Source: an uncultured Bacteroidales bacterium | Lineage (GTDB): Bacteria; Bacteroidota; Bacteroidia; Bacteroidales; Paludibacteraceae | NCBI GenBank assembly: GCA_903927945.1 | Contig: CAIYOZ010000138.1 | Span: 1-41,730, forward strand | Length of the DNA: 41,730 bases | Direction: 5' to 3' | Shown here: piece by piece, positions 1,867 through 41,445 of the stretch | How the letters are laid out: each line of letters begins with the position of its first letter | Position numbering within the stretch: position 1 is the first letter of the stretch | Made by a program: the position numbers and the translations under genes | Notes under the pieces: model-generated | Told to the model about the DNA's origin: nothing | Database searches by the model: none | What the model saw: only the letters and a program-made list of their open reading frames with translations

Positions 1867-1899
1867 ACTAGTCGTGATTTTTAAATAGTCACGGCTAGT
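1867..1899 (+). terminator. Hairpin after the first pectate lyase
   Basis: An 11-bp stem (ACTAG-T-CGTGA at 1867-1877 pairing with TCACG-G-CTAGT at 1889-1899, one G-T wobble) lies ten bases after the stop codon. No U-tract follows, so termination would be weak. Its right arm overlaps the -35 part of the promoter-like signature at 1894-1921. Confidence 0.4.
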
Positions 1900-1921
1900 A
1901 CAAACTAGGAGTCTCTTCGTC
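1894..1921 (+). promoter_or_regulatory. ECF-like promoter (AGTACA-15-CGTC)
   Basis: GCTAGTACA at 1894-1902, a 15-base spacer, then CGTC at 1918-1921 (continuing TTTAGAG). The same architecture occurs upstream of seven other genes in this window. CGTC is a typical -10 element of ECF sigma factors. The ATG is 38 bases downstream. The first three bases of the -35 box differ from the commonest form TTGAGTACA. Confidence 0.6.
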
Positions 1922-1959
1922 TTTAGAGTATTAAAGCAACACAAACAAATAATAATTAT

Positions 1960-3150
1960 ATGAAAAACGTTACAAAACTATCTCTACTGGCTTTATTAAT
2001 AAGCCTTTCCTTGTCAGGTTACGGTCAATGTGGAGGTGCACTGACTACTTGTGGCAATTCCTATATTACGACAAATGCAGGATGGACCAATTCTGAGTAT
2101 TATCAAATCATCGATATCGACGCAGCAAAATTAACGGATGCAACATTACCTCAATTTACCGCAGCCGATGGATCCAAAAATGCATTGGAGCCGGTACCTG
2201 CTACCAATGATGGTCCAACTGACTTTGCTTCTGGTTTATTCAAAACACCCATCATGACTACAACAGATGGATTAGTATACACCCCATCAACAGTTAAATG
2301 GCCAGTGAATTTTTATTTAGCCGCTTTTGCACCTTCTATGTACACAAGTGCGTATACAAAAGACAGTTTAGTGGGATCAGGTTATTCTGGAACCGGAACT
2401 ACGGCCGCCTGTACACTCAACAACAATACTGTGATTGTAAGCCCTATCTATAAGAAACCGGGATTTATCGAATTAAGCCGCTTACCTGCTACCTTGACAA
2501 ATCCTACTGTGAGCCGTCTGGGATACATTGAAATAGACAATCTTCCACAAGTGGAAAGAATTCAGTGGTCATATTCTTCAACTTCCTGGAAACGTGGTGT
2601 GAAATTTGATCTCAACTTCAATGATGGAAAAGGTTGGATTCCGCAACGGTGGATTGCCACCGGTGCCGGTAACTGGGAAGCTACATTTGCCGAACAAGGG
2701 TATCAGTTTGAAGAAGTGGTTGGGAAACAAGATGATCCAAGCTCTTTAGTATCTTTTAGAATCAGGCCTTGGGATGGTGATAGTATTGATTTAAAACCAA
2801 ATGCAAATAATTGTACTTACCAGGCTACTACCTATACTGCAAAAAACACCCCACTGGCTCAACAACAAACCGTACGGGTGCATCAAATAAAGGTTTTCAG
2901 CAATGTAATACCAGATCAGGCGCCCAGTGCTGTAAACACAATTAATGCCTCGAAATTAAACATTTACCTTTCTGATAAAAACATTGTTATTTCTGAGACT
3001 GTAAATGCTGAATTGTATACCATTGAAGGTAAAAAAGTATTCAAGGGTTTTACCAATCAAGTTGATGTTTCGGGTCTATCGCGAGGGATTTATATTTTGA
3101 AGGCTACCACCAAGGATGGTGCGATACAAAATAAAAAGATTCTGATTTAA
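1960..3150 (+). CDS. Secreted T9SS protein of unknown function
   Basis: A 396-residue protein with a signal peptide (MKNVTKLSLL...SGYGQ). The middle, about residues 25-320, is rich in Thr, Tyr and Trp and looks like a beta-sandwich; I do not recognise the domain. The segment RIQWSYSSTSWKRGVKF and later RPWDGDSIDL are its most distinctive parts. The last 70 or so residues form a T9SS type A sorting domain (YTIEGKKVFKG, LSRGIYILKA, final KKILI). It lies between two pectate lyases and has its own ECF-like promoter, so it is probably a surface or released protein working with pectin breakdown, perhaps in binding. That role is inferred from position only. Confidence 0.75.
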   Translation: MKNVTKLSLLALLISLSLSGYGQCGGALTTCGNSYITTNAGWTNSEYYQIIDIDAAKLTDATLPQFTAADGSKNALEPVPATNDGPTDFASGLFKTPIMTTTDGLVYTPSTVKWPVNFYLAAFAPSMYTSAYTKDSLVGSGYSGTGTTAACTLNNNTVIVSPIYKKPGFIELSRLPATLTNPTVSRLGYIEIDNLPQVERIQWSYSSTSWKRGVKFDLNFNDGKGWIPQRWIATGAGNWEATFAEQGYQFEEVVGKQDDPSSLVSFRIRPWDGDSIDLKPNANNCTYQATTYTAKNTPLAQQQTVRVHQIKVFSNVIPDQAPSAVNTINASKLNIYLSDKNIVISETVNAELYTIEGKKVFKGFTNQVDVSGLSRGIYILKATTKDGAIQNKKILI

Positions 3151-3173
3151 GGATTTAATGAACTTTAAGGGAG

Positions 3174-3209
3174 AAGGAGATATTGATTCGTCAGTATCTC
3201 CTTTTCTGT
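3174..3209 (+). terminator. Rho-independent terminator
   Basis: A perfect 9-bp stem (AAGGAGATA at 3174-3182, TATCTCCTT at 3195-3203) with a 12-base loop is followed by TTCTGTTT. It lies 23 bases after the T9SS protein's stop codon. Confidence 0.7.
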
Positions 3210-3227
3210 TTATATTTGTACCCGATT

Positions 3228-3255
3228 TTGAGTACAACTGGTTATGATTGCCGTC
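3228..3255 (+). promoter_or_regulatory. ECF-like promoter (TTGAGTACA-15-CGTC)
   Basis: TTGAGTACA at 3228-3236, a 15-base spacer and CGTC at 3252-3255 (then TTAATT). It lies 55 bases before the chosen ATG at 3311 and just after the preceding terminator. It is one of the full nine-of-nine matches to the commonest -35 form. Confidence 0.7.
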
Positions 3256-3310
3256 TTAATTGTATATTTTAAATGACTATCATTTCAATAAAAAACTAAG
3301 AAAAAGACCA

Positions 3311-5002
3311 ATGAAAAAGAAATTATTTTTGGGTATTTGTGCTGTGTTGCTTTTAGCACCTCTCTCAACGATTAGAGCCCAATATCCGGATGTTCCAAAA
3401 GATCTAAAGGCTTCAGCCGACAAAATGATCGATATGGAAAACAAGGTTGTGGATAGCGTGATGCTGGCCAACAAATCCATACTTAAAGCTGAGAAGACTC
3501 ATGGTCGCCCGTACATTCCCTGGGCAGCCCGCCCGACAGATCTACCTCAGGCTAAGATACCTTCCTTCCCGGGTGCAGAAGGCGGCGGAGAGTTCTCCTT
3601 CGGTGGCCGTGGCGGCAAAGTGATTACAGTGACAAGTCTTGCCGACAGAGGGCACGGAACATTGCGAGAAGCATGCGAAGAAACTGTTGGTGCACGTATT
3701 GTGGTTTTTAATGTTGCAGGTGTTATTCACCTAAAATCGCCGATCATCATAGCAGCACCCTACGTTACTATCGCGGGACAAACAGCTCCAGGTGATGGAG
3801 TTTGTGTGGCAGGAGAATCGTTTTGGGTAAATACCCATGATGTTGTGGTACGTCATATGCGTTTCCGTCGTGGTGAGACTAAAGTGGAACGTAGGGATGA
3901 CTCTTTTGGAGGAAATCCGGTTGGAAATATCATGATTGACCATTGCTCCTGTACATGGGGGTTGGATGAAAACATTTCATTTTACAGGCATATGTTTAAC
4001 CCAGGTCCCGGTATAAAGGAAGAAAAACTACCAACCGTAAACGTAACCATTCAGAATACCATTTCAGCACAGGCATTGGATACGTATAATCACGCTTTTG
4101 GAAGCACACTGGGTGGTGAAAACTGTTCATTCATGCGAAACCTTTGGGCAGATAATGCAGGACGTAATCCATCCATTGGTTGGAATGGTGTTTTCAATTT
4201 TGTAAACAACGTAATTTATAACTGGCACAACCGCTCGGTTGATGGCGGTGACTATACAGCCCTGTATAATATCATCAATAATTATTATAAACCGGGACCA
4301 GTTACAGCTAAAAATGAACCTATTGGTCATCGTATTTTGAAACCTGAATCGGGTCGTAGTAAATTAGGATACCTGGTTTTTGGACGCGTATATTGCAATG
4401 GCAATATTATGGAAGGAAACGAAGCTGTAACCAAAGACAACTGGAATGGCGGTGTGCAAGTGGAAGAGATGGAAAATGCCGGACAATATACCGACTCCAT
4501 GCGCTGGAACGAACCTTTTCCAAAACCTGAATTTCCGATTATGAAAGCGCAAGAGGCTTATGACTTTGTGACTAAAAATGTGGGAGCAAATATTCCAAAA
4601 CGTGATATTGTAGACGAACATATTTTGACACAGGTAAAAACAGGAAAAGTGTATTATAAAGAAGGACTTGATTCTGTCAATTTCTTCCAGTTTAAACACC
4701 GTCGTTTACCAAAAGATTCCTATAAAAATGGTATTATCACCGACATCCGTCAGGTGGGTGGCTATCCTGAATATAAAGGAAAAGCTTATAAAGACAGCGA
4801 TGGTGATGGTATGCCGGATGCATGGGAGAAAGCAAACGGTTTGAATCCAAATGATCCTACGGATGCTATCAAGGATTGCACGGGTGATGGATATACCAAC
4901 ATCGAAAAATATATCAACGGTATCGATACCAAAAAGAAAACAGATTGGACGAAACCTGAAAACAACCACGACACGCTGGCTGAAAAAGGAAAACTCATGT
5001 AA
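3311..5002 (+). CDS. Secreted pectate lyase (PL1-like), no T9SS domain
   Basis: The ATG at 3311 is chosen because MKKKLFLGICAVLLL begins a clear signal peptide; the longer reading frame opens with TTG at 3260, inside the leader. The mature protein starts with a helical, charged N-terminal extension (about residues 25-75) that the first pectate lyase lacks. The PL1-type beta-helix carries GGRGGKVITVTSL, AGQTAPGDGVCV, IDHCSCTWGLDENIS and the Arg-containing WADNAGRNPS. An Asp-rich calcium-binding-like module (DSDGDGMPDAWEKANG, then DCTGDGYTNIEKY) follows near residues 495-545. The protein ends in a short charged tail with no T9SS domain, so it should stay periplasmic or be exported in another way. 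Its substrate is probably demethylated homogalacturonan. Confidence 0.83.
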   Translation: MKKKLFLGICAVLLLAPLSTIRAQYPDVPKDLKASADKMIDMENKVVDSVMLANKSILKAEKTHGRPYIPWAARPTDLPQAKIPSFPGAEGGGEFSFGGRGGKVITVTSLADRGHGTLREACEETVGARIVVFNVAGVIHLKSPIIIAAPYVTIAGQTAPGDGVCVAGESFWVNTHDVVVRHMRFRRGETKVERRDDSFGGNPVGNIMIDHCSCTWGLDENISFYRHMFNPGPGIKEEKLPTVNVTIQNTISAQALDTYNHAFGSTLGGENCSFMRNLWADNAGRNPSIGWNGVFNFVNNVIYNWHNRSVDGGDYTALYNIINNYYKPGPVTAKNEPIGHRILKPESGRSKLGYLVFGRVYCNGNIMEGNEAVTKDNWNGGVQVEEMENAGQYTDSMRWNEPFPKPEFPIMKAQEAYDFVTKNVGANIPKRDIVDEHILTQVKTGKVYYKEGLDSVNFFQFKHRRLPKDSYKNGIITDIRQVGGYPEYKGKAYKDSDGDGMPDAWEKANGLNPNDPTDAIKDCTGDGYTNIEKYINGIDTKKKTDWTKPENNHDTLAEKGKLM

Positions 5003-5077: not shown

Positions 5078-5764
5078 ATGAAAACAATTAAATATAAGAT
5101 ATCCGGACTTGTACTTTGCTTCTTGATGCTGGTTCCTGCCCTGAAGGCTGTGGAACTGGACTCTAAAAGCCGTGATCCTAAATATGTGGAAACCATCGTG
5201 GCACGGTCCCAAAAGATTGTAGACAAACTAAAGCTGGCTGATGCCAACGTGAGCCGGAATGTGCTGAATATCGTTGCCAACCGCTATTTTACACTGAATG
5301 ACATCTTTTCAAAACGTGATTCATCTGTCAACCGGATTAAAAGATCAGAATTAAAGGGAGAAGCAAGAAACTCAGCACTCACTGCCTCCCAAAATGAGAA
5401 AGAAGCAGCCCTGTACCGTTCGCATTTTGCCTTCGCCGGTGATTTATCCCTTTACCTGAATGAATCGCAAATTGAAGCAGTAAAAGACGGTATTACATTC
5501 GGGGTAGTGAAGGTAACCTACGATGCCACCGTAGAGATGATTCCAAGCCTCAAGGACGACGAAAAAGTTCAGATACTGGCATGGCTCAAGGAAGGACGTG
5601 AATTCGCCTTAGACGCCGAAACTTCCGAAAAGAAACATGAAGCATTTGGCAAGTTTAAAGGCCGTATCAACAACTACCTTTCCAAACAGGGATACGACCT
5701 GATCAAGGAACGCGAAGGCTGGTATGCCCGCAACAAAGCCCGCGACGAAGCCAAAAAGAAATAA
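5078..5764 (+). CDS. Secreted DUF3826 family protein
   Basis: A 228-residue protein with a signal peptide (MKTIKYKISGLVLCFLMLVP..ALKA). The mature part is mostly helical, Lys/Glu/Ala-rich, with RSQKIVDKLKLADA near the start and KDDEKVQILAWLKEGREFA near residue 165. This pattern is the DUF3826 family, which is often encoded beside pectate lyases in Bacteroidetes PULs and has been described as putatively sugar-binding. No catalytic motif can be pointed to. It follows the second pectate lyase with a terminator-like hairpin between them, so its level is probably set by partial read-through. It is probably a periplasmic accessory of pectin breakdown; the function is not known. Confidence 0.75.
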   Translation: MKTIKYKISGLVLCFLMLVPALKAVELDSKSRDPKYVETIVARSQKIVDKLKLADANVSRNVLNIVANRYFTLNDIFSKRDSSVNRIKRSELKGEARNSALTASQNEKEAALYRSHFAFAGDLSLYLNESQIEAVKDGITFGVVKVTYDATVEMIPSLKDDEKVQILAWLKEGREFALDAETSEKKHEAFGKFKGRINNYLSKQGYDLIKEREGWYARNKARDEAKKK

Positions 5765-14068: not shown

Positions 14069-14096
14069 GACGGATAATAGAGGGATTTGTACTATG
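14069..14096 (-). promoter_or_regulatory. ECF-like promoter (AGTACA-15-CGTC), minus strand
   Basis: On the minus strand, CATAGTACA (14096-14088), a 15-base spacer and CGTC (14072-14069) precede the GH95 start codon by 26 bases. The signature lies between a terminator (14119-14151) and the gene, where a promoter is expected. Confidence 0.6.
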
Positions 14097-25153: not shown

Positions 25154-25181
25154 GACGGATAAAATCGGAAATAGTACTCAA
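25154..25181 (-). promoter_or_regulatory. ECF-like promoter (TTGAGTACT-15-CGTC), minus strand
   Basis: On the minus strand, TTGAGTACT (25181-25173), a 15-base spacer and CGTC (25157-25154, then TCAAG) precede the GH43-like gene by 58 bases. It forms half of a divergent pair with the plus-strand signature at 25578. Confidence 0.6.
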
Positions 25182-25577: not shown

Positions 25578-25605
25578 TTGAGTACAGGCAAAAAGATGAA
25601 TCGTC
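25578..25605 (+). promoter_or_regulatory. ECF-like promoter (TTGAGTACA-15-CGTC)
   Basis: TTGAGTACA at 25578-25586, a 15-base spacer and CGTC at 25602-25605 (then TTTAAAA). The chosen ATG is 53 bases downstream. Confidence 0.7.
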
Positions 25606-25658
25606 TTTAAAATAATCAATGAAATATTAATTCAACAAACTTAAAAATGATTTGTATT

Positions 25659-27419: not shown

Positions 27420-27448
27420 TTGAGTACAGTTTTTAATAAATGAACGTC
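27420..27448 (+). promoter_or_regulatory. ECF-like promoter (TTGAGTACA-16-CGTC)
   Basis: TTGAGTACA at 27420-27428, a 16-base spacer and CGTC at 27445-27448 (then TTTGTA). The ATG is 36 bases downstream, and the signal directly follows a terminator. Confidence 0.7.
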
Positions 27449-30412: not shown

Positions 30413-30441
30413 CTTAGTACAATTCGGTCTTTTCATGCGTC
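30413..30441 (+). promoter_or_regulatory. ECF-like promoter (AGTACA-16-CGTC)
   Basis: CTTAGTACA at 30413-30421, a 16-base spacer and CGTC at 30438-30441 (then TATTACG). It lies directly after a terminator and 78 bases before GH127, where it would drive the seven-gene operon down to the MFS transporter. Confidence 0.6.
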
Positions 30442-30519: not shown

Positions 30520-32598
30520 ATGAAGAAACTTTTTCTGTTTATTATTCTCCTTGCCTCATTTAGTATCGCTCCCTGTGCACAAAACCGGGGACTTACCAAC
30601 ACGTCAGTCAGTAAATTTGCCAAAATGAACAGCACCAACATTGATGCGGTGAAATGGACCAACGGCTTTTGGGCCGAGCGTTTCTCGGTGTACAAAGACA
30701 CCATGATCCTTTCGATGTGGAAAACACTCGACAATCCGGATATCAGCCACTCCTACCGCAACTTTGAAGTGGCGGCAGGTGAGATGGGGGGAGATCATTG
30801 GGGACCACCCTTTCATGATGGTGATTTTTACAAGTGGCTGGAGAGTGTCGCCTCGGTATATGCCATCACGAAGGAACCAAAATTAGATTCGTTGATGGAC
30901 CGGATTATTGCCACCATTGCAAGGGTTCAGCGGGCGGATGGATATATCCATACACCGGTGATCATTGCCGAGATGCACAAGGGTATTGATTCGCACAAAG
31001 TCGACAACACTGTCGTGGGGACAGCAGTTGGTTCTGCAGATAAAGGAGCCTTCTCAAACCGGCTTAATTTTGAAACCTATAACCTGGGTCATTTGATGAC
31101 TGCCGGAACCATTCACCAACGGGCCACGGGGAAACATACACTCTTTGATGTAGCCGTAAAAGCCACTGATTTTCTGTGTCATTTCTACGAAACGGCGTCG
31201 GCAGAACTGGCACGGAATGCCATTTGCCCTTCCCATTACATGGGGGTAGTTGAAATGTACCGCGCTACGGGGAATCCAAGGTACCTCGCCCTGGCAAAAA
31301 ACCTTATTGATATACGGGGTATTGTGGAAAGCGGCACCGATGACAATCAGGACAGGATTCCTTTTCGCCAACAAAAACAAGCCATGGGTCATGCCGTACG
31401 TGCGAATTATCTGTATGCCGGAGTAGCCGATGTGTATGCAGAGACGGGTGAAACAGCATTGATGAATAACCTGGAAAGCATCTGGACGGACATCACCACC
31501 CGGAAAATGTACGTTACCGGAGCCTGCGGTGCACTCTATGATGGCACCTCACCCGATGGGACAAACTATAAACCCGATAGCATTCAGAAAGTGCATCAAA
31601 GTTACGGGCGTGCCTACCAACTGCCCAATTCAACAGCACACAACGAAACCTGTGCCAACATTGGAAACATGATGTTCAACTGGCGCATGTTGCAGGTAAC
31701 GGGTAATGCCAAATATGCCGATATCCTGGAAATGGCACTTTACAACAGTGTCCTGAGCGGAGTCAGTTTGGATGGGAAACGCTTTTTCTATACCAATCCG
31801 TTACGAATCAGCAATGACTTTCCATACACACTTCGCTGGCCAAAAGAGCGCACTGAATATATCAGTTGCTTTTGCTGCCCGCCAAATACGGTACGAACCT
31901 TATGCGAAGTGCAGGATTATGCCTATAGCACTGGTAAAAATGCCATTTGGTGCAACTTGTACGGAGGAAGCCAACTGGAAACGGTATTGAATGGAAAAGA
32001 CAAGGTGAAACTAACCCAGACAACCGACTACCCCTGGGATGGGGATGTGATGATTGTGGTAGATAATGCACCTAAAGGGAATGCCTTTTCACTGAATCTG
32101 CGGATACCTGAATGGTGTGATAAAGCAACAATAACGATTAACGGTCAGGCATATGCTTCAGAGAATAAACCAAATACCTACACTTCCATAAATCGTGTCT
32201 GGAAAAAGGGAGACACGGTGAAACTGGTACTGGACATGCCAGTTAAGTTATTGGAATCGAACCCGTTGGTGGAGGAAACACGCAACCAGACAGTCGTAAA
32301 ACGGGGTCCGCTGGTTTATTGCCTGGAAGGAATGGATGTTGAAGGGGGAAAGAAAATTGACAACGTAATGATACCTTCCGGTCTCAAATTCACCACCCGG
32401 AAAGAAAACATAGCCGGCAGCCCGGTTGTGGTGCTGGATGCGAAAGCACAGTTATCGAACGAAGCATCCTGGAGTAATACCCTGTATCGGGAAGTCGGGA
32501 AATCAAACCAATCAGTCAACATCACCCTGATACCGTATTATACCTGGGGGAATCGGGGAAAATCAGAAATGACGGTTTGGATGCCACTGGTAAGATAA
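30520..32598 (+). CDS. GH127 (DUF1680) glycoside hydrolase
   Basis: A 692-residue protein with a signal peptide (MKKLFLFIILLASFSIAPCA). The (alpha/alpha)6 barrel contains the GH127 zinc and cysteine nucleophile set: Glu376 and Cys378 in HNETCAN, and Cys452-Cys453 in SCFCCPPN. This equals the Glu-x-Cys...Cys-Cys arrangement of the bifidobacterial beta-L-arabinofuranosidase. A C-terminal beta-sandwich follows (NLRIPEWCDKATITING). GH127 members act on beta-L-arabinofuranosides; the RG-II locus member BT1003 is described as an aceric acid hydrolase. The GH141 gene directly behind it mirrors the BT1002-BT1003 neighbourhood, so aceric acid release from chain B is the leading idea. It is the first gene of a long operon. 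Confidence 0.86.
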   Translation: MKKLFLFIILLASFSIAPCAQNRGLTNTSVSKFAKMNSTNIDAVKWTNGFWAERFSVYKDTMILSMWKTLDNPDISHSYRNFEVAAGEMGGDHWGPPFHDGDFYKWLESVASVYAITKEPKLDSLMDRIIATIARVQRADGYIHTPVIIAEMHKGIDSHKVDNTVVGTAVGSADKGAFSNRLNFETYNLGHLMTAGTIHQRATGKHTLFDVAVKATDFLCHFYETASAELARNAICPSHYMGVVEMYRATGNPRYLALAKNLIDIRGIVESGTDDNQDRIPFRQQKQAMGHAVRANYLYAGVADVYAETGETALMNNLESIWTDITTRKMYVTGACGALYDGTSPDGTNYKPDSIQKVHQSYGRAYQLPNSTAHNETCANIGNMMFNWRMLQVTGNAKYADILEMALYNSVLSGVSLDGKRFFYTNPLRISNDFPYTLRWPKERTEYISCFCCPPNTVRTLCEVQDYAYSTGKNAIWCNLYGGSQLETVLNGKDKVKLTQTTDYPWDGDVMIVVDNAPKGNAFSLNLRIPEWCDKATITINGQAYASENKPNTYTSINRVWKKGDTVKLVLDMPVKLLESNPLVEETRNQTVVKRGPLVYCLEGMDVEGGKKIDNVMIPSGLKFTTRKENIAGSPVVVLDAKAQLSNEASWSNTLYREVGKSNQSVNITLIPYYTWGNRGKSEMTVWMPLVR

Positions 32599-32735
32599 CC
32601 CCTAACCCCTAACCCCTAAAGGGGAATCGGGTATGTTTATTTATTAAGTAACTAATATAGTAACTAATAAGATCCTTTATGTTTAAAGAAATTTTATTTC
32701 ACCTTGCCAAAGCCCCTTTTAGGGGGTTGGGGGTT
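32597..32735. repeat. CCCCTAA-type inverted repeat reaching into the GH141 signal peptide
   Basis: At 32597-32624 there are three AACCCCT units followed by AAAGGGG. At 32713-32735 a near-complement reads CCCCTTTTAGGGGGTTGGGGG. The two arms point toward each other and flank about 90 AT-rich bases, including a duplicated AGTAACTAATA. The left arm starts at the stop codon of GH127, and the right arm lies inside the GH141 coding region, where it encodes KAPFRGLGV. It resembles dispersed Bacteroidetes intergenic repeats. Confidence 0.6.
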
Positions 32736-34532
32736 CTTCTTTTAGTTGCATCACTCCATTCAAATGCAACAGAAATCTGGGTATCAACCACTGGAAATGA
32801 CCGTGCAAATGGAACAAAAGAGGCACCGAAAGCAACCTTGGCTTCGGCCATCAGGCAGGCCCGTGAATGCAGGAGACTGAACACCCCGGGGATAGAAACC
32901 GGTATTCAGATTATGATAAAGGGAGGAGTATATGCCCTCTATGAACCTCTTTTTCTTCGTCCCGAAGACAGTGGAACAGCCCAGTCGCCAACGACTATCG
33001 AGGGAGTGGAAGGAGAGAAAGTTACGATCTGTGGCGGCGTGAAGGTAATGAACTGGAAAAAGTCTGGTAAACTCTGGGTAACAGAGGTTCCTTCGTTTAA
33101 TGGCCGTCCACTGGATTTCCGCCAGTTATGGGTTAATGGAAGAAAGGCTGTACGTGCCCGGGATGTAGTTGATTTTGAAAAGATGTACCGCATTATCAAG
33201 AACGATCCTGTCCATGAAATCCTCTGGGTACCGACAGTTGCCATAAAATCCATATTGAAAGCTCCTTATGCAGAAATGGTGTTGCATGAAATGTGGTGTA
33301 TCGCCAACCTGCGGATCAAGTCTATAGAGGTACACGGGGATTCGGCTGCCGTACGTTTTCAAAACCCCGAAAGTAAATTACACTTCGAACGTTACTGGCC
33401 CCGCCCTATGATCGGCAAAGGAGTGAATTCCCCTTTTTACATTACAAACGCCCTGGAGTTGCTGGATCAACCCGGAGAATGGTTTCATGATATTAAAACA
33501 AACAAACTTTATTATTTTCCGGTAACGGGAGAAAATCCGAATCAGGACGAAATAATAGTTCCGGCAATTGAAACGCTGGTACAAGTGGAAGGAACGCTGG
33601 ACAGGCCGGTTGAAAATGTGAAGTTCAAAAATGTCACGTTTAGTCATACTACCTGGATGCGTCCTTCGGAAAAAGGGCATGTGCCCTTACAAGCCGGGAT
33701 GTATGCTACCGAAGCTTACCGTATCGATCCTCAGATAGTGCGTGGTGACAATAATAACAAACTGGATAATCAGGTTTGGCTTGAACGGGCTGCGGCTGCT
33801 ATTACTGTAAAATGCTCAAATGCCATTGATTTTGATAACTGTAAATTTGAACATCTTGGTTATTCCGGACTTGATTATGCGTACGGCGATCGGGGTGGAA
33901 GAGTACAAAACTGTACCTTTACGGACATTGCCGGAAATGGAATACTGGTTGGAAGTGTTTCCCCACCGGCTTATGAAACACACATACCTTATGTTCCACA
34001 GGACGAAAGAGAAATCTGCAACGGTCAACAAATCAGTAATAATCTGATCACCGATGTTACCAACGAAGATTGGGGTTGTGTAGGAATTTGTGCAGGATAT
34101 GTCAGCAACATCAATATTGAACATAACGATATCAGTGAAGTTTCTTATATGGGAATCAGTCTTGGTTGGGGTTGGAACCAGACCTTTAACCGCATGCACA
34201 ACAACCGGGTTTTTGCAAATCACATTTGGCATTATGCGAAACACATGTATGATGTAGCAGGAATTTACACCCTGGGCGTGCAACCTAAAACAGTCATTTC
34301 CAGGAACTATGTTCATGATATTTATCATCCGGGGTATGTTCACGACCCGGAACACTGGTTTTATTTATATACCGACGAAGGGTCTTCGTATATCACGGTG
34401 AAAGACAATTTTACGGAAGGGGTCAAATTCCTTCAAAATTCTAACGGTCCCGGCAATACCTGGGAAAATAACGGTCCTATGGTGAACGACAGCATAAAAG
34501 TGAATGCCGGAATAAGTCGTTCAGTTCATTAA
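32679..34532 (+). CDS. GH141-like right-handed beta-helix glycosidase
   Basis: A 617-residue protein. The mature region opens ATEIWVSTTGNDRANGTKEA, the usual start of this beta-helix family, and continues with PTTIEGVEGEKVTICGG, then rungs such as NAIDFDNCKFEHLGYSG, RVQNCTFTDIAGNGILVGS and NINIEHNDISEVSYMGIS. GH141 includes the alpha-L-fucosidase BT1002 of the RG-II locus and some xylanases. The gene follows GH127 by 80 bases, as a BT1002/BT1003 pair does, so alpha-L-fucosidase action on chain A is the likely role. The N-terminus is odd: the signal-peptide region contains repeat-derived codons (KAPFRGLG) between MFKEILFHLA and VLLLVASLHSNA, so secretion should not be taken for granted. No T9SS domain is present. 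Confidence 0.78.
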   Translation: MFKEILFHLAKAPFRGLGVLLLVASLHSNATEIWVSTTGNDRANGTKEAPKATLASAIRQARECRRLNTPGIETGIQIMIKGGVYALYEPLFLRPEDSGTAQSPTTIEGVEGEKVTICGGVKVMNWKKSGKLWVTEVPSFNGRPLDFRQLWVNGRKAVRARDVVDFEKMYRIIKNDPVHEILWVPTVAIKSILKAPYAEMVLHEMWCIANLRIKSIEVHGDSAAVRFQNPESKLHFERYWPRPMIGKGVNSPFYITNALELLDQPGEWFHDIKTNKLYYFPVTGENPNQDEIIVPAIETLVQVEGTLDRPVENVKFKNVTFSHTTWMRPSEKGHVPLQAGMYATEAYRIDPQIVRGDNNNKLDNQVWLERAAAAITVKCSNAIDFDNCKFEHLGYSGLDYAYGDRGGRVQNCTFTDIAGNGILVGSVSPPAYETHIPYVPQDEREICNGQQISNNLITDVTNEDWGCVGICAGYVSNINIEHNDISEVSYMGISLGWGWNQTFNRMHNNRVFANHIWHYAKHMYDVAGIYTLGVQPKTVISRNYVHDIYHPGYVHDPEHWFYLYTDEGSSYITVKDNFTEGVKFLQNSNGPGNTWENNGPMVNDSIKVNAGISRSVH

Positions 34533-34564
34533 TTGAAAAATAATAGAAACACAGATTGGATACG

Positions 34565-35635
34565 ATGTTGAATATAGCAATTCTGGGACTGGGAGAAGGC
34601 AGGAGCACCATGTCAGCAGCTTTAAAAAGCCCAAAACTGAACCTGATAAAAGTTTGTGACCGAAATGAAGAACTTTGCAAACAAAGGGCAAATGAATTTG
34701 ATTTCCACTCCTATACGTTAAATTATGAGGATCTTTTAAATGATCCTGAAATAGATATTATCGCGATTTATACGCCCGATCATCTCCATGCTGATCATAT
34801 CAAACAAGCTTTGCTTCACGGGAAACATGTGGTTTGTACCAAGCCATTTATAGATGATCTGTCAAAAGCAAAGGAATTATTGGAGCTAAGTGAGAAAACC
34901 GGTAAAAAGGTTTTTATCGGTCAGAGTTCAAGGTTCTTTGAACCCGCGAAGAGGCAAAGAGCCGATTTAGAAGACGGAGTAATTGGTGATTTAATAACAA
35001 TAGAGGCTCATTATAATGCGGATCATCGTTGGTTTTTAGCAAAGGAATGGTCGTTGCTTCAATCATTTAAATGGCTCTATGGCGGATTAAGTCATCCAGT
35101 CGATTTCATCCGGTGGTATTTACCCAACATTGAAGAAGTCATGGGTTATGGAATGATTAGCAGCAATGGAAAACAAGCCGGACTAAAAAACGAAGATACC
35201 ATGCACTTTATCTTCAAGGCAACCGATGGAAGGATCGCCAGGGTGAGTGGTGTATATACTTCTCCGACACAGCCTGCACAACGTGAAAGTGAGATGAGTT
35301 GTATTTTAAGAGGCACGACGGGTGCCAGTCAGGCCGATTATCATGAGCTACGGTATGCAGTCACCACAAAAGAAGCTGAAGAAAAAATAATCACCTGGGG
35401 TGCTGACACATTGAGTCATTATTTCCGCTTCGAAGGACAGAGTCATCATGCCGGCGAATATCAGAATTACCTGGAATACTTTGTGGATAGCATTGAACAG
35501 GATTTTGTGGCTTATCCTGATTTGAATGAAGGTATTGGCACTATTGCCTTATTACAGGCCATGGACCGATCGTTACAAACAGGAGTACCAATTAAGATAG
35601 CTGATATTTTAGCGGAGTTTAATCTTCAACTTTAA
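34565..35635 (+). CDS. Gfo/Idh/MocA family oxidoreductase
   Basis: The ATG at 34565 gives 356 residues; the frame could start at a TTG three codons earlier. No signal peptide, so cytoplasmic. The N-terminal Rossmann fold has ILGLGEGRS for NAD(P) binding, and the family's catalytic-lysine motif appears as VVCTKPF (Lys93 from this start). A middle segment, WLYGGLSHPVDFIRWY, carries the conserved His of the substrate domain. Such enzymes oxidise or reduce sugars and sugar acids. In this operon, between secreted RG-II glycosidases and a uronate-type transporter, it probably works on a released monosaccharide such as an apiose, aceric acid or O-methyl sugar derivative. The substrate cannot be named from sequence. 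Confidence 0.82.
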   Translation: MLNIAILGLGEGRSTMSAALKSPKLNLIKVCDRNEELCKQRANEFDFHSYTLNYEDLLNDPEIDIIAIYTPDHLHADHIKQALLHGKHVVCTKPFIDDLSKAKELLELSEKTGKKVFIGQSSRFFEPAKRQRADLEDGVIGDLITIEAHYNADHRWFLAKEWSLLQSFKWLYGGLSHPVDFIRWYLPNIEEVMGYGMISSNGKQAGLKNEDTMHFIFKATDGRIARVSGVYTSPTQPAQRESEMSCILRGTTGASQADYHELRYAVTTKEAEEKIITWGADTLSHYFRFEGQSHHAGEYQNYLEYFVDSIEQDFVAYPDLNEGIGTIALLQAMDRSLQTGVPIKIADILAEFNLQL

Positions 35636-35682
35636 CACTAACAACTTTTCCAAAGTTTAAGTACAAATAATACCCACAATCC

Positions 35683-37881
35683 ATGAAACGCACCATCTTC
35701 CTTTTCGTCTTTACAGCCATTACACTTCTTTCCAATGCCCAATCCTGGATATGGTATCCGGGTGATTACGAAATATGGCTGGGGAACCAAATGAATAACC
35801 GCCGGACAGAACGGGGTGCTTTCTTTCCTCCCTTTTGGAAGATGGACAGTCACTATGTATTGGTTGAATTCAGTAAGAAAATAGACTTAGCCGTTGCGGA
35901 AGAAATTGAAATAGCCATAGAAGGAAAATTCAATATCAAGCTGGATGGAAAACTGCAATTTGGAATGCCGCATAAGTTCACTCTCCCTGCCGGAAAGCAC
36001 AGTTTGAACATTAAAGTATGGAATCAGTCCACACCTCCCGCTATTTACGTGAAAGGCAAAACCGTCAATTCGGATGAATCGTGGAAGGTTACCTACGAGG
36101 ATAAAGAATGGATTGACGAAAGTGGAAAAGCCAGTGATACCTCAGCAACCATTTACATGGATGCAGCCACTTCAAATCAGTTTAAATCAACCGGCACACC
36201 ACCTTCATCCTTTAAACTGGCCACTGAGCCCATATCGGTCGTTAAACGCGAGAAAAAGAATGAGGGTGAATTGTTTGATTTCGAAAAAGAGACATTTGGC
36301 TTTATTCAACTGAAAGGTTTAAAGGGAAATGGAGAAATGCATATTTACTACGGTGAAAGTCCGGAGGAAGCCCTGGATACAAAATATTGCGAAACACTGG
36401 ATAGAATTAGATTAGAAGGATCTACCGTTACAGACGAAGCTCTCGATGTGACCTCAAAACTGACGGACATCTTTACGCTAGGGAATAGCAAGGCTTTCCG
36501 GTATGTCTACATCACTAAAGATGCAGGAGTTGAAATGCAGGATGTAAGCATGTTGTACGAATACAAACCTGAAGTAAAGAGAGGTTCTTTTCGCTGTAAT
36601 AATGAAGAAGTAAACAAGATGTGGGAAGTAGGAGCCTACACGATGCAGCTGACAACACGTGAATTCTTCATTGATGGCATTAAACGTGACCGCTGGGTAT
36701 GGAGTGGTGATGCCATCCAGAGTTACCTGATGAACTATTACCTGTTCTTCGATACAGAGACGGTGAAAAACAATATCTGGTTGTTGCGTGGTAAAGACCC
36801 GGTAACCAGTCATACGAACACCATTATGGATTATACTTTCTATTGGTTTCTGTCCATTTACGATTATTATAAGTTTACGGGTGATACCCATTTTATTGAA
36901 CAGGTTTATCCACGTATGCAAACCATGATGGACTACGTGCTGGGCAGGACCAACAAAAACGGCATGGTGGAAGGTCAAACCGGCGACTGGGTGTTTGTGG
37001 ATTGGGCAGATGGGTATATGGATAAACACGGAGAACTTTCGTATGAACAAATCCTGTTTTGCAAGAGCCTTGAGACCATGTCGATTTGCGCGAAGCTGGT
37101 GAATAACAACGGAGATAAAACAAAATATGACAGCCTGTCAACTTCTCTGCGCAACAAATTGGAACCGGCATTCTGGAATGAAACAAAACAAGCGTTGGTG
37201 CATAACCGGTTGAATGGAAAACAGAAAGATGCCGTGACCCGATATGCCAATATGTTTGCTGTATTCTTCAATTATCTGAGTCCTGAGAAACAACAAATTA
37301 TAAAGAAATCGGTTCTTCTTAACGATAGTATCATGAAGATCAGTACTCCATATATGCGCTTCTATGAACTTGAAGCGTTGTGTGCCATGGGCGAACAAAA
37401 AGCGGTCATGAAAGAGATGAAGGATTACTGGGGAGGAATGATTCGCGAAGGAGCTACCACATTTTGGGAAAAATACAATCCTTCCGATAAAGGGACTCAA
37501 CATTTAGCCATGTATGGACGTCCCTACGGCAAAAGCTTATGTCATGCATGGGGAGCCAGCCCTATCTATTTGCTTGGTAAATACTACCTGGGCATTCAAC
37601 CGGTTAAAGCAGGTTACAGCGAATTTTCCATTACACCAAACCTGGGTGGATTGGCATGGATGGAAGGTACTGTTCCAACCCCTGCCGGTGAAATCAAACT
37701 TTATATAAACAATAAGACCATCAAGGTTAGAGCTTCCCAAGGCAAGGGTTATATTAATTTCAGCAGTAAGTCAAAACCTAAAACCAATATCGGTCAGATT
37801 GAGAAGCTGCACGGTACTGATTATCGATTGTTGATAAATACAAAAGAAGAAGTATCAATAAATTATTCTATCAAAAATTAA
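35683..37881 (+). CDS. GH78-like alpha-L-rhamnosidase (BT1001-like)
   Basis: A 732-residue protein with a signal peptide (MKRTIFLFVFTAITLLSNAQ). N-terminal beta-sandwich domains (about 20-300) precede an (alpha/alpha)6 barrel with the motif DGIKRDRWVWSGD (Asp331, Asp336) and EGATTFWEKYNPS with Glu589. A C-terminal beta-sandwich follows. It is shorter than the other two GH78 proteins here and lacks their N-terminal fibronectin-like domain. The grouping with GH141 and GH127 recalls BT1001-BT1003 in B. thetaiotaomicron, pointing to a chain B or A rhamnose linkage. It follows the oxidoreductase by 47 bases and the next gene starts 4 bases after its stop codon. Confidence 0.83.
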   Translation: MKRTIFLFVFTAITLLSNAQSWIWYPGDYEIWLGNQMNNRRTERGAFFPPFWKMDSHYVLVEFSKKIDLAVAEEIEIAIEGKFNIKLDGKLQFGMPHKFTLPAGKHSLNIKVWNQSTPPAIYVKGKTVNSDESWKVTYEDKEWIDESGKASDTSATIYMDAATSNQFKSTGTPPSSFKLATEPISVVKREKKNEGELFDFEKETFGFIQLKGLKGNGEMHIYYGESPEEALDTKYCETLDRIRLEGSTVTDEALDVTSKLTDIFTLGNSKAFRYVYITKDAGVEMQDVSMLYEYKPEVKRGSFRCNNEEVNKMWEVGAYTMQLTTREFFIDGIKRDRWVWSGDAIQSYLMNYYLFFDTETVKNNIWLLRGKDPVTSHTNTIMDYTFYWFLSIYDYYKFTGDTHFIEQVYPRMQTMMDYVLGRTNKNGMVEGQTGDWVFVDWADGYMDKHGELSYEQILFCKSLETMSICAKLVNNNGDKTKYDSLSTSLRNKLEPAFWNETKQALVHNRLNGKQKDAVTRYANMFAVFFNYLSPEKQQIIKKSVLLNDSIMKISTPYMRFYELEALCAMGEQKAVMKEMKDYWGGMIREGATTFWEKYNPSDKGTQHLAMYGRPYGKSLCHAWGASPIYLLGKYYLGIQPVKAGYSEFSITPNLGGLAWMEGTVPTPAGEIKLYINNKTIKVRASQGKGYINFSSKSKPKTNIGQIEKLHGTDYRLLINTKEEVSINYSIKN

Positions 37882-37885
37882 ATTC

Positions 37886-38965
37886 ATGACTTATAAATCG
37901 AATTCCCTGTTGGGGAAAGAAATGTTGCCGGTCGACATTGTACTGTTACCTGAATGGTGGAACAAAAACGAAGGAATTACCTTCGATCATGATTTCTTTT
38001 ATCATCCGTTGAAAAGAGTGGAAGAGGAACAACACATGGAAAAAGTGTTGTACGAACGGTGGGGAAAGTTCGGAATGGGGCAGCATAAAGATCAGGCTCG
38101 ACCTGAAATTGGAGCAGTTCATCTGGCAGCAGGATATTTGCTTTCCGAAATGATGGGTTGTGAAGTGAGATATTCAGAAGCTCATCCACCTCAGGTATTG
38201 GCTGCCCATCAGGAATTAACTACTATCAATATAGAGCAGGCATTCAAATCTGCTGCATTTCAGCAAGTAGAGCATTTAATTGCATCACTTAAAAATAAAT
38301 TCGGATACGTTACCGGTGACATTAACTGGGGTGGGATACTCAATATTGCTATGGATTTGCGGGGTGAGGATATTTTCATGGATATGATGTTGACCCCTGA
38401 TGAGGTGAAAGATTATTTCAACGGAATCGCAGCAGTCATTGAAAGGTTTAATTCGTTTATGCAGGCACTGACAGGTTCAACATCCATCTCGGTGAACCGT
38501 GGGGTGCGTCACCTCCAACAACCGGTACTGCTGCATTCCGAATGCTCACACACCATGATTTCATCTGAAGATTATGAAGAATTTCTATTGCCGTTTGATC
38601 AGAAATGGAGCAGTAAACGTCCGTTTGGCATTCATTACTGTGGCCCTGATCCGCACCGTATGGCTTCTAGTTTTGCTAAGATACCCCATCTCGATTACCT
38701 GGATTTAGGGTGGGGAGGTGACGTAAAAATACTACGCGAACATTTACCGGATACCTTCTTCAATATCCGCCTGAGTCCGATAGAACTGGCAAAACAATCG
38801 CACCTTGAAATTCGCGAGACTATCAGCCGCCTGGTTCATGAGTCCGGGAATCCTTATCTGACAGGTGTTTGTTGCATTAATATGGATGATTCCGTTTCTG
38901 ATGACAAAATCAATGTCCTGTTTGAAACAGTGGAAGAATTGAAAAAAGATTACCAAATAATATAG
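37886..38965 (+). CDS. UroD-superfamily MtaA-like methyltransferase, first of a pair
   Basis: A 359-residue cytoplasmic protein (no signal peptide) of the uroporphyrinogen decarboxylase/MtaA superfamily, a TIM barrel. It keeps a zinc-type motif: His250-x-Cys252 in GIHYCGPD and Cys329/Cys330 in TGVCCINM, about 77 residues later. As I recall, MtaA/MtbA corrinoid:coenzyme M methyltransferases bind zinc through His-x-Cys and a Cys about 77 residues on, so the spacing agrees. Haem-pathway decarboxylases do not use this motif. No corrinoid-binding protein or methylated-substrate methyltransferase (MtaB-like) gene is seen nearby. It follows GH78 by 4 bases and is followed by its paralogue 3 bases later. 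Substrate unknown; methyl transfer from an O-methyl sugar is an inference. Confidence 0.72.
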   Translation: MTYKSNSLLGKEMLPVDIVLLPEWWNKNEGITFDHDFFYHPLKRVEEEQHMEKVLYERWGKFGMGQHKDQARPEIGAVHLAAGYLLSEMMGCEVRYSEAHPPQVLAAHQELTTINIEQAFKSAAFQQVEHLIASLKNKFGYVTGDINWGGILNIAMDLRGEDIFMDMMLTPDEVKDYFNGIAAVIERFNSFMQALTGSTSISVNRGVRHLQQPVLLHSECSHTMISSEDYEEFLLPFDQKWSSKRPFGIHYCGPDPHRMASSFAKIPHLDYLDLGWGGDVKILREHLPDTFFNIRLSPIELAKQSHLEIRETISRLVHESGNPYLTGVCCINMDDSVSDDKINVLFETVEELKKDYQII

Positions 38966-38968
38966 ATA

Positions 38969-40096
38969 ATGGCACAAAAATTCGACAATCAACTGGCAGA
39001 TTCCCAAGCCACACAAGTCTTGCAGGTAAAACCGGCAGATTTCAATTTCGACTTGTATGAATCTTATGCAGACTCTTTGAACCTAACCTGCACCGACTTT
39101 TGGCAACAGAAAACGGGTGTTGTAGTATACCGCAGAATGCGTGTGGGCGAGTGTTTTTCTTTTGGCTGCAAGGATATGGCTCGGTCGCTTGAACTTCAGC
39201 TTGGAGCACTTGAAAAGAGCATGCTTTATAAGGCTGATGTCCCTAACTTTTTAGAACCCTGGTATGGCATTGGTACTGTTGCCAGTGCATTTGGGGGAGA
39301 TTACTTATGGTACGAAGGGAATGCACCAGCCCTGAAACCTCGTTTTCAGACTATCGATGAAGTGCTGGCTTGTGAATCAGTGGAAATAGCACAAACCAAC
39401 ATTGGCCGTCATACATTGGATATGATCGAATACTTTATGGATCATACCAAAGGCCGGTTACCCGTTTCACTCACCGACACCCAATCACCATTAAATATAA
39501 TTGGTCACTTATATCCGCTCAACAATTTCTTTATGGATACAATGATTGAACCGGAAAAAGTGATCCAGCTTTTTGATTTGTTGTCAGATTTATCCATTCG
39601 GTTTAATCAAAAACAAGTAAATCTGATTGGCAGTGCATTGGCTTCTCCCGGACATGGGTTTGCTTCTTCCACTAAATGGCAGGGACTGGGCATGAGCGAC
39701 GACAATGCCATCATGATTTCACCCGATCAATACCTCGAGATGGCTGCACCTTCCGTCGAGAAAATCTGTACTCCACTTGGTGGGCCGGTATTCCATTCTT
39801 GTGGTGACTGGGCAGGCTGGGTAGAAGCTGTACTCAGGATAAAAGGACTGAAGATAGCCGATGGGGCTTTTTCAATGCAAACTGATCCGGGAGCTACTGA
39901 TAATCTGGAAGCATTTCATAGTTTTGCCAATACAGGTGTTGTGTTGAACGCCCGAATTGTTGGCAATTTAAATACCATTCGTGAGCAGGTTTCCCGTCTG
40001 TGGGTTCCGGGTATGAAGTTAGTGGCAGTGACTTACTGTGAATCACCTCTCGAACAGGAAGAAGCATACCAACTCATCCACGAACTATGTCAGTAA
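38969..40096 (+). CDS. UroD-superfamily MtaA-like methyltransferase, second of a pair
   Basis: A 375-residue cytoplasmic protein, clearly of the same superfamily as its neighbour but strongly diverged from it. The zinc-type motif is again present: His276-x-Cys278 in FHSCGDW, and Cys357 in TYCESP, 79 residues on. Other distinctive stretches are TDTQSPLNIIGHLYP and GASPGHGF-like ALASPGHGFASS. The gene starts 3 bases after the first paralogue and overlaps the MFS gene by 10 bases, so all three are probably translated together. The pair may form a heteromer, or each may serve a different methyl donor or acceptor. Haem synthesis is unlikely because of the motif and the operon. Confidence 0.72.
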   Translation: MAQKFDNQLADSQATQVLQVKPADFNFDLYESYADSLNLTCTDFWQQKTGVVVYRRMRVGECFSFGCKDMARSLELQLGALEKSMLYKADVPNFLEPWYGIGTVASAFGGDYLWYEGNAPALKPRFQTIDEVLACESVEIAQTNIGRHTLDMIEYFMDHTKGRLPVSLTDTQSPLNIIGHLYPLNNFFMDTMIEPEKVIQLFDLLSDLSIRFNQKQVNLIGSALASPGHGFASSTKWQGLGMSDDNAIMISPDQYLEMAAPSVEKICTPLGGPVFHSCGDWAGWVEAVLRIKGLKIADGAFSMQTDPGATDNLEAFHSFANTGVVLNARIVGNLNTIREQVSRLWVPGMKLVAVTYCESPLEQEEAYQLIHELCQ

Positions 40097-41343
40097 ACAT
40101 TGGGAATTACCGCTGGCGCATTGTAGTACTGTTGTTTTTTGCCACCACTATCAATTACGTCGACCGTCAGGTATTAGGAATTCTGGCACCACAACTTCAG
40201 TTGCAATTTGGTTGGTCCGAATCGGATTATGGTTTTATTATCATGGCTTTCCAGGCTGCTTATGCAATAGGCCTGATTTCGACGGGAACATTGCTTGATA
40301 AAATCGGAACCCGCCTGGGATTTATCATCTCAGTTTCATTGTTGAGTTTTGCCGGAATGATTCATGCAGCCATGCGGACTGTTTTCTCTTTTTCTATTGC
40401 ACGCTTCGGACTGGGCTTTGGTGCTTCCGCTAATTTTCCGGCATCCATAAAGACAGTGGCTGAATGGTTTCCCAAAAAGGAACGAGCATTGGCAACCGGC
40501 ATTCTAAATTCAGGTTCGAATCTGGGTGCTATCCTCTGCCCGTTGATTATTCCCATTATCGCACTGAAATTTGGATGGCAGTGGGCATTTATAACGACAG
40601 GAGCCATGGGTTTTGTGTGGTTGTTGTTCTGGATTCCTGTATATCGCAAACCTGAATCGAATTTACGGTTGAAGGATACCGAACTCAAGTACATTTTGCA
40701 GGATGACCTGGAACCCGAAACAAAAAAACTACCCTGGAAATCGATCATATCCTATAAACAGACCTGGGGAATATGCCTGGCACGCTTTCTGACTGATCCA
40801 ATCTGGTGGTTTTTCTTATATTGGTTGCCTAAGTTCCTTCATTCAAATTATCATATCGACCTCACTAAAATCGGGCTACCCCTCGTTGTTATCTATATTG
40901 TTTCTATGGGAGGATCAATTTTTGGAGGCTGGATGTCTTCCTTTCTGATTAAAAGAGGGAAAGATCCTTTGGCAGCACGTAAAAAGACCATCTTTTTTAT
41001 GGCATTGCTGGTAGTTCCAATCTTTCTAACCTCGTTTACTACCAATGTATGGGTTGCAGTAACTCTTATTTCCATGGCTACTTTTGCCCATCAAGGTTTT
41101 GCGGCTAATATCTTCACCATCGTGTCAGATATTTATCCGAAAAATGCAGTTGGTTCGGTAACCGGGCTTTCAGGGTTTGCCGGGGCCATTGGTGGAGTAT
41201 TATTCTCCGGGTTCGTTGGATTAATTCTTCAATTCACCGGAAGTTATTATGCCATTTTCGCTATTGCCAGTCTGGCATATTTGTTCTGTTGGTTGTCTCT
41301 TTACCTTTTGGTTCCGAATGCACAAAAAATACGAATCCACTAA
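40087..41343 (+). CDS. MFS transporter, hexuronate (ExuT/ACS) type
   Basis: A 418-residue inner membrane protein with about twelve hydrophobic segments. The N-terminus has the anion:cation symporter signature NYVDRQVLGILAPQL, then DYGFIIMAFQAAYAIG and GTLLDKIGTRLG. ARFGLGFGASANFPASIK and WFPKKERALATGI are typical of hexuronate transporters such as ExuT and its relatives. It probably brings galacturonate, glucuronate or a related acidic sugar from RG-II breakdown into the cytoplasm. It overlaps the upstream methyltransferase by 10 bases and is the last gene of the operon. Specificity for an unusual acid (aceric acid, Kdo, DHA, methylated uronate) is possible but not visible. Confidence 0.85.
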   Translation: MSVNIGNYRWRIVVLLFFATTINYVDRQVLGILAPQLQLQFGWSESDYGFIIMAFQAAYAIGLISTGTLLDKIGTRLGFIISVSLLSFAGMIHAAMRTVFSFSIARFGLGFGASANFPASIKTVAEWFPKKERALATGILNSGSNLGAILCPLIIPIIALKFGWQWAFITTGAMGFVWLLFWIPVYRKPESNLRLKDTELKYILQDDLEPETKKLPWKSIISYKQTWGICLARFLTDPIWWFFLYWLPKFLHSNYHIDLTKIGLPLVVIYIVSMGGSIFGGWMSSFLIKRGKDPLAARKKTIFFMALLVVPIFLTSFTTNVWVAVTLISMATFAHQGFAANIFTIVSDIYPKNAVGSVTGLSGFAGAIGGVLFSGFVGLILQFTGSYYAIFAIASLAYLFCWLSLYLLVPNAQKIRIH

Positions 41344-41417
41344 AAAGCTAGAATTGAGGAAAGCTGTTAGGCAATGAATCTGACCGTTTAGTCAGGTAAC
41401 GTTCAGAAAGGATTAAA

Positions 41418-41445
41418 TTGAGTACAGAAGGGCATTTTTTGCGTC
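41418..41445 (+). promoter_or_regulatory. ECF-like promoter overlapping a terminator hairpin
   Basis: TTGAGTACA at 41418-41426, a 15-base spacer and CGTC at 41442-41445 (then CTTC). It lies 40 bases before the ATG at 41486. Spacer and -10 overlap the hairpin at 41424-41452, so either function might have shaped the bases. Confidence 0.5.

Follow-up and report, generated by a model that had tools for sequence, protein, structure and literature searches.

The usual regulators of polysaccharide utilization loci (PULs) are pairs of an extracytoplasmic function (ECF) sigma factor and an anti-sigma factor, and hybrid two-component systems (HTCSs) (PMC11501099). Here, we analyze a contig of an uncultured Bacteroidales bacterium of the Paludibacteraceae (CAIYOZ010000138.1, taken whole at 41.7 kb and called the window below), in which eight transcription units are headed by a common ECF-type promoter motif. 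We suggest, from comparative sequence evidence, that all eight sites serve as promoters in a single ECF regulon for breakdown of rhamnogalacturonan-II (RG-II) and pectin, read by a candidate sigma factor encoded elsewhere in the genome and/or by its second copy, with an HTCS step above it and a small FecR-like protein as a feedback arm. We put the probability of this reading at roughly 0.87.

In the FecI/FecR pairs (FrrF-type) of Bacteroidetes polysaccharide loci, as at the loci described here, an ECF gene adjoins a FecR-related gene and glycan genes are, in our case probably, controlled; it is to the cytoplasmic N-terminal part of FecR that our small protein aligns. The present partner differs in having 77-86 residues with no membrane-like segment or periplasmic domain, and in having a putative sigma-dependent promoter of its own; as far as few SusC queries go, SusC stands right beside the pair only in Phocaeicola vulgatus. 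PorY-PorX-SigP of Porphyromonas gingivalis (PMC4800418) is likewise a two-component system working through an ECF in a Bacteroidetes. In P. gingivalis, however, it is the sigma protein with which the response regulator interacts, and the genes served encode components of the type IX secretion system (T9SS); in our proposal a hybrid sensor would work on the sigma gene, and the genes served are those of pectin enzymes. HTCS_Rgu-1 (BT4111/BT4124) of Bacteroides thetaiotaomicron (PMC3878776) is also an HTCS in a pectin locus, and its predicted operator, 12-bp sites with a 9-bp spacer, has the same 21-bp period that we find before the sigma gene; that HTCS, however, was inferred to regulate pectin genes itself, without a sigma factor in between. 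Another ECF that governs a distant polysaccharide locus is SigW-1 (BT1817), which works on PUL59 in trans (PMC12596196), but its regulon is one of arylsulfatases and its promoter motif was reported as non-significant.

In 2013, the prediction of ECF promoters in Bacteroides was described as difficult unless transcription starts are known (PMC3878776), and a 2020 source gave no motif as known for any alternative ECF of B. thetaiotaomicron. Two RG-II-induced PULs of that species were given in 2011 as having no associated regulator (PMC3243724). We found no description of this sigma factor or promoter in the open-access literature, which was the scope of our search. ECF/anti-sigma pairs and HTCSs being established PUL regulators, what is probably new is an ECF regulon with a separate FecR N-terminal tail and a probable HTCS step. 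Promoter, candidate sigma factor, partner and regulon all occur in named gut species, which opens the control of RG-II genes in trans to direct test, and a separate gene for the FecR N-tail would be a natural counterpart of the laboratory-made FecR1-85 fragment.

Eight sites with a common signature

Scanning both strands of the window for AGTACW-N15/16-CGTC gave eight cores, at 1897, 3231, 14093 (minus), 25178 (minus), 25581, 27423, 30416 and 41421. Every site listed by an earlier, sequence-only reading of the window was present in its place, the spacer being 15 bases in six and 16 in two, and TTGAGTAC was complete in five. Each site heads one of eight transcription units:

1894..1921, plus strand: ECF-type promoter GCTAGTACA-N15-CGTC, 5' of a T9SS protein gene (1960-3150)
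3228..3255, plus strand: ECF-type promoter TTGAGTACA-N15-CGTC, 5' of a pectate-lyase-like gene (3311-4999) and then a DUF3826 gene (5078-5764); kept before orthologues in relatives
14069..14096, minus strand: ECF-type promoter CATAGTACA-N15-CGTC, 5' of GH95, then apiosidase-like and GH78/BNR genes (14042 down to 6228)
25154..25181, minus strand: ECF-type promoter TTGAGTACT-N15-CGTC, 5' of a BT_3657-like (GH43-type) gene; the operon may run through BT_1020-like, GH78, GH28 and DUF3826 genes down to 14251
25578..25605, plus strand: ECF-type promoter TTGAGTACA-N15-CGTC, 5' of a gene for a protein of unknown function (25647-27326; T9SS tail below cut-off), a family found behind the same promoter in relatives
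27420..27448, plus strand: ECF-type promoter TTGAGTACA-N16-CGTC, 5' of a gene for a T9SS protein of unknown function (27485-30337)
30413..30441, plus strand: ECF-type promoter CTTAGTACA-N16-CGTC, 5' of GH127, GH141, Gfo/Idh, rhamnosidase-like, two URO-D/MtaA-like and MFS transporter genes (30520-41343)
41418..41445, plus strand: ECF-type promoter TTGAGTACA-N15-CGTC, 5' of an alpha-D-galacturonidase-family gene from 41486, truncated by the contig end

In this order, the end of CGTC lies 38, 55 (to the ATG at 3311), 26, 58, 41, 36, 78 and 40 bases before the start codon, which bears out the range of 26-58 bases, with one site at 78, given earlier. The chance expectation had been put at well below one match, and 100 dinucleotide shuffles of the window agree, with a mean of 0.10 and a maximum of 1 against the real 8.

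The form of the motif resembles that of a promoter. We tabulated 54 distinct sites, eight from the window and 46 from elsewhere in the Paludibacter-like genus, skipping those with fewer than 60 bases downstream, merging duplicates and leaving out four loci of other genera. The spacer is 15 bases in 44 sites and 16 in the other 10; the sequence is T-rich 5' of both the -35 and the -10 box, and T follows CGTC. An A stands at +9 after CGTC in 39 of the 54, and from this peak we place the probable transcription start about 9 bases past CGTC. In 52 of 54, an open reading frame (ORF) begins 14-144 bases downstream of the site, the other two having starts mis-set by the first-ORF rule (window site 3228, TTG at 4; L065, at 0). 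Between CGTC and the start codon, TAnnTTTG, the -7 box of housekeeping (sigma-ABfr) promoters, was found in only three of 52 leaders of target genes.

The first genes behind these sites are 13 pectate-lyase-like, 10 alpha-galacturonidase, seven of unknown function (the family of window gene 25647), seven GH43-type, five GH2 and five small FecR-N genes, with seven singles that include GH127, GH95, GH141 and URO-D-like genes. In 13 Bacteroides/Phocaeicola genomes, TTGAGTACN...CGTC gave 46 matches versus 13 for the control. We read 32 of the 46, and 26 of these precede a small gene (7) or a GH43-type (7), GH127 (5), galacturonidase-family (3), SusC (2), pectate-lyase-like (1) or esterase-like (1) gene; targets here were named by eye, except for GH127 (Pfam), the pectate-lyase-like gene (68% to that of the window) and the L153 galacturonidase (69% to that of L064). 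Both lineages thus have the promoter in front of genes of the pectate-lyase-like, alpha-galacturonidase, GH43 and GH127 kinds, the GH2 and GH141 targets coming from sites of the genus. Pectate-lyase paralogues serve as an internal control: window-type orthologues carry the site in 13 of 16 cases (two lack it and one is cut before its start), versus none of the seven read (of eight found) among paralogues of 60% identity that lie in the HTCS/sigma locus. A third paralogue group (66% identity) has AGTACA-N15-CGTC without TTG in three of six, so that the boundary of the regulon is not sharp.

Specificity depends on the length of the pattern. In the source genome (4.47 Mb, 450 contigs; the window is its contig C138), the bare core has 17 matches versus 27 for the reversed pattern and is therefore not specific outside the window. 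A genome-wide scan had been proposed to see whether matches cluster at pectin loci; eight of the 17 do fall on the window contig, whereas five of the remaining nine lie within long ORFs. The other four precede ORFs:

GH2 gene, 24 bases downstream
small FecR-N gene on contig C2, 25 bases downstream
pectate-lyase-like gene, 79 bases downstream
lipoprotein-like gene, 91 bases downstream, the weakest of the four

The strict form TTGAGTACA-N15/16-CGTC has 33 matches versus six for the reversed control in 60 genomes, the source genome included. Strict matches outside the genus (genomes G037, G049 and G053; loci L071-L074) were not promoter-like by eye and were excluded from the counts.

Candidate sigma factor, partner and sensor

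The source genome has 16 PF08281 matches, two of them clearly not sigma factors. The candidate is encoded at C2:38890-39468, with a second copy, 90% identical, on contig C365. It is an ECF sigma factor (sigma-70 group IV) of about 190 residues with sigma2 and sigma4 architecture (PF08281 above cut-off; TIGR02937 sigma70-ECF, 87.7 bits, cut-off 42.9). At both copies a short ORF follows the sigma gene and the promoter sits in the gap between the two, the C365 version reading CGTT. Orthologues occur in 15 of 48 genomes of the genus at 61-100% identity, the next-best match being 40%. A scan of named genomes, which required exact peptides, found the orthologous gene in Paludibacter-labelled metagenome-assembled genomes, Bacteroides, Phocaeicola and Proteiniphilum, including P. 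vulgatus ATCC 8482 and B. xylanisolvens XB1A; B. thetaiotaomicron was not among its 51 loci.

We assembled 35 sigma loci (L130-L164), 34 of them with at least 150 bases downstream. In 33 of these 34, a promoter (TGAGTAC-type, with CGTC or CGTT) lies no more than 330 bases behind the sigma gene: 31 loci have TGAGTAC-N15/16-CGT(C/T) within 50 bases, one has it at 213, and one reads CGAGTATA. This arrangement spans Paludibacter-like, Bacteroides, Phocaeicola and Proteiniphilum genomes. By eye, the promoter was absent from remoter Prevotella relatives (L165-L169) and outgroups (L170-L180). One of the former, L165, has TGATGACA-N15-CGTC with a hairpin between the ECF and small genes, possibly a drifted form of the same promoter. 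A TGTCCCTTTTT-like ... CTCTT element, probably a different class of ECF promoter, stands between the ECF and FecR genes of L170, L171 and L173-L178 (Prolixibacteraceae and other Bacteroidota).

Motif and sigma gene also occur together. In the first 36 genomes of the genus, strict motif and ECF agree in 33 (nine with both, 24 with neither; one with the ECF only and two with the motif only; Fisher p 5.5e-6). A prediction set beforehand for 12 unsearched genomes was borne out, the motif being present in five of five with the ECF and none of seven without it (p 0.0013). For all 48 the figures are 14/15 versus 2/33 (Fisher p 3.5e-9), and for 60 Bacteroides genomes, 18 of which have the ECF, 17/18 versus 9/42 (p 1.2e-7), all of these p-values taking related genomes as independent. 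The nine matches in ECF-negative Bacteroides all lie within stop-free stretches of 221-1009 codons.

The proposal of the sequence-only reading that one ECF sigma factor governs the pectin units jointly is thus well supported by comparison and is the best reading: a candidate has been found, in two lineages the same promoter follows its gene, and orthologous pectin genes again have it in front of them. The two gene copies in the source genome qualify the word "one". An ECF/FecR pair had been expected near a flanking SusC gene; the sigma gene of the source genome sits instead in a cluster of HTCS, pectate lyase and DUF6298 genes. The expectation of an anti-sigma partner outside the window held in part, a partner gene being found elsewhere in the genome; it encodes a stand-alone FecR N-terminal domain and not the usual membrane FecR, which may act as anti- or as pro-sigma.

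The small protein encoded behind the sigma gene has 78-86 residues in 13 members from the genus and 77-83 in seven from Bacteroides. Its maximum 19-residue hydropathy is 0.32-1.06 (n=13) versus 1.67-2.33 in 11 full FecRs; it therefore appears to be soluble, with no membrane-like segment. Aligned with the N-terminal 90 residues of those 11 FecRs, the small proteins give an hhalign probability of 97.5 (E 7.8e-12, 74 columns), the controls against two ECF alignments giving 0.1. By this alignment, the partner would be a FecR N-terminal sigma-binding domain; the membrane span and periplasmic FecR domain were not found in it. Pfam held no convincing family for the small proteins, only scattered weak single-member matches (best E 0.01), and a PDB sequence search returned one match (E 0.81). 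The predicted fold (mean predicted local distance difference test score, pLDDT, 85.9) had a best E of 4.2 in a PDB fold search and was not used as evidence. Gene context at the sigma loci was compared with a chosen list of proteins, in which SusC was represented by one query; with it, a SusC-like gene was seen directly after the pair in P. vulgatus (L145) and beside the pair at no other locus.

At the small gene, an inverted repeat covers both the -10 box and the bases just 5' of the start codon. The folding test covered the 32 distinct small-gene leaders recognised by script, three others shorter than 12 or longer than 100 bases being dropped, and gave a mean folding z of -1.77 versus +0.23 in 46 other regulon leaders (Mann-Whitney p 1.9e-8, approximate, since the sequences are related and some leaders have no stem). 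The likely transcription start lies 3' of the 5' arm of the hairpin, so that the hairpin would form only in transcripts that run on from the sigma gene.

The sigma gene itself appears to be under other control. TAnnTTTG stands 5' of it in all 37 upstream regions; its own promoter type is found on the far side, between it and the small gene, and not where autoregulation of the sigma gene, common among ECFs though not defining for them, would place it. A 12-mer direct repeat (at least 8/12) at a 21-bp period occurs 5' of the gene in 26 of 37 regions, versus 10-15 at periods of 19, 20, 22 and 23. In 25 of the 30 sigma loci with at least 9 kb read, an HTCS gene is found upstream of the sigma gene in the same orientation, and a DUF6298 gene, of a family on which we found no open-access literature, is so placed in 35 of 35 loci. 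The HTCS of the source genome (L250:8721-13115) combines a Reg_prop/Y_Y_Y sensor, HisKA, receiver and AraC-type helix-turn-helix in one protein (seven Pfam families). From the TAnnTTTG box and the repeat before the sigma gene, the nearby HTCS and the likeness to the HTCS_Rgu-1 operator, we infer a cascade from HTCS to ECF to regulon, in which HTCS binding to the repeat is only suggested by the repeat count. As a genome-wide predictor, the operator-like pattern ATGTTACCTNNNTTTACCA was rejected (22 matches in the genus at up to one mismatch, seven of them before the ECF, versus 25 in the reversed control). Both of its two matches in the source genome precede the two ECF copies, and a shortened pattern has four matches in the window at up to three mismatches, which is near chance.

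We suggest the following circuit. A pectin oligosaccharide would activate the hybrid sensor, which would raise the sigma factor through the housekeeping-type promoter, most likely by binding the 21-bp-period repeat. The sigma factor would recognise TTGAGTACA, 15/16 bases and CGTC-TT, opening the distant RG-II promoters together with that of the gene right behind its own. The product of that gene, a putative soluble stand-alone sigma-binding domain made when sigma is active, would form a feedback arm, for which we favour negative (anti-sigma) feedback over activation. It may be translated mainly from the sigma-dependent transcript, the hairpin being expected only in read-through mRNA. Of this circuit, the sites, the gene order, the conservation and the kinship with the FecR N-terminus are read from sequence; the specificity of the sigma factor, the direction of the feedback, HTCS binding and the part played by the hairpin are our inference. 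Viewed as a design for glycan control, HTCS to ECF to scattered RG-II genes, with a FecR N-tail that contacts neither a membrane sensor nor a transporter, serves as a self-locking pro-sigma switch or a timed brake, and is gated in translation by a read-through hairpin, the whole is offered tentatively, at somewhat less than even odds.

Alternative readings

Several observations weigh against the proposed regulon. TTG is missing from three of the eight window sites; six of the 32 matches read in Bacteroides/Phocaeicola have no plausible target downstream, and two of nine strict matches read in ECF-positive Bacteroides also lie inside genes. Apart from the relatedness already built into its p-values, the co-occurrence is confounded: the pectate-lyase gene is confined to 16 of the 48 genomes, namely 14 with the ECF plus G022 and G031. 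In these two (98% and 96% complete), the promoter heads the pectate-lyase gene and no ECF match was found at 1e-10. A missed sigma locus was considered and rejected, because an orthologue-grade DUF6298 neighbour was not found (none in G031, only 30-33% matches in G022); assembly gaps, recent loss or another sigma factor are the only candidate reasons we can offer. Conversely, one Bacteroides genome with the sigma gene (G118, L225) lacks the strict motif, and its sigma gene is not directly followed by a small gene, possibly through decay of the system. Finally, paralogous ECFs with full FecRs bear a TTGAGTAC-like -35, and in G066 and G063 they are flanked by TTGAGTACA-N16-CGTT, near the CGTT form seen before some small genes, so that cross-reading by a paralogue is possible. 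Paralogues of about 30-40% identity (L248, L258, L091, L090, L094, L095 and L015) are flanked by a TGAGTAC-like -35 with a mostly different -10 (CGTTA, CTGTTA and others); one -35 with diverging -10 boxes is perhaps how sister sigma factors separate their regulons.

In one alternative, the sites are ECF promoters read by another ECF of the genome, the conserved ECF with the FecR-N gene being only a regulon member. There are 14 other PF08281 matches to choose from, not all of them sigma factors; the paralogues share a related -35, in G066 and G063 the CGTT -10 as well, and G022 and G031 have promoters without the candidate. Yet in two lineages the promoter stands between the candidate ECF gene and that of its putative partner, whereas by eye a CGTC-type site lies beside the sigma gene in none of 11 paralogue loci, and we regard a different reader as very unlikely. 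Also very unlikely is the motif as the operator of a transcription factor upstream of ordinary promoters. Plant-glycan loci of Bacteroides are mostly under HTCS DNA-binding regulators (PMC3243724, PMC3878776), and an HTCS gene does lie near the sigma gene, but a motif with two spacers (44 and 10 sites), a place 14-144 bases before an ORF in 52 of 54, an A peak at +9, TAnnTTTG between it and the start in just three of 52 leaders, and a position behind the ECF gene in 33 of 34 loci looks like a -35/-10 pair.

Within the proposed regulon, the roles of the small protein and its hairpin are less firm. FecR1-85, of similar size, gives constitutive activation (FecA synthesis), whereas the FpvR N-fragment inhibits its sigma factors (PMC9249621), so that the small protein may be of either sign. 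A pro-sigma activator driven by the promoter type of sigma itself would make a positive, self-locking loop and not a brake; with the FpvR precedent against it, we think this less likely than not. For the hairpin, a DNA operator or chance AT-rich pairing has only a little less than an even chance compared with a translational lock: the stems are short and shift in register, several of the 32 leaders have none, and the leaders are related within each genus and shorter than the controls, so that the p-value overstates their independence. The difference in mean folding z (-1.77 in 32 versus +0.23 in 46) argues for the lock.

Gene content of the window

Pfam domains in the window include BT_1020-like, GH95, GH127, GH141, GH78, apiosidase, GH28, BT_3657-like (GH43-type) and DUF3826. 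The pectate-lyase-like protein of the second unit matches the PelZ model at E 1.1e-38 (falling well short of the cut-off of that model) and PDB 9buj at E 1.3e-41. The truncated last gene clusters with that of L064, whose complete protein scores 1485 bits with the alpha-D-galacturonidase model (cut-off 1300) and matches the solved BPa0997; this family we take to be the RG-II enzyme family GH138. We read the window as an RG-II locus.

The first unit, encoding a PelZ-like protein with a T9SS tail, is the sole one in the window without the ECF motif, which was not found in its 96 available upstream bases:

45..52, plus strand: housekeeping-type TAnnTTTG box TATTTTTG, 5' of the PelZ-like gene (97-1857)

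Behind the C2 sigma locus lies a gene for an NtrR-like (Nudix-type) repressor (L251:302-1009, below the model cut-off); the genes after it look by eye like ones for pentose use. RG-II contains O-methyl sugars. URO-D/MtaA-CmuA-like genes lie within the RG-II operon at 37886-40096 (one match weak), and in L042 one stands directly behind an ECF promoter; a role in demethylation is conceivable for them.

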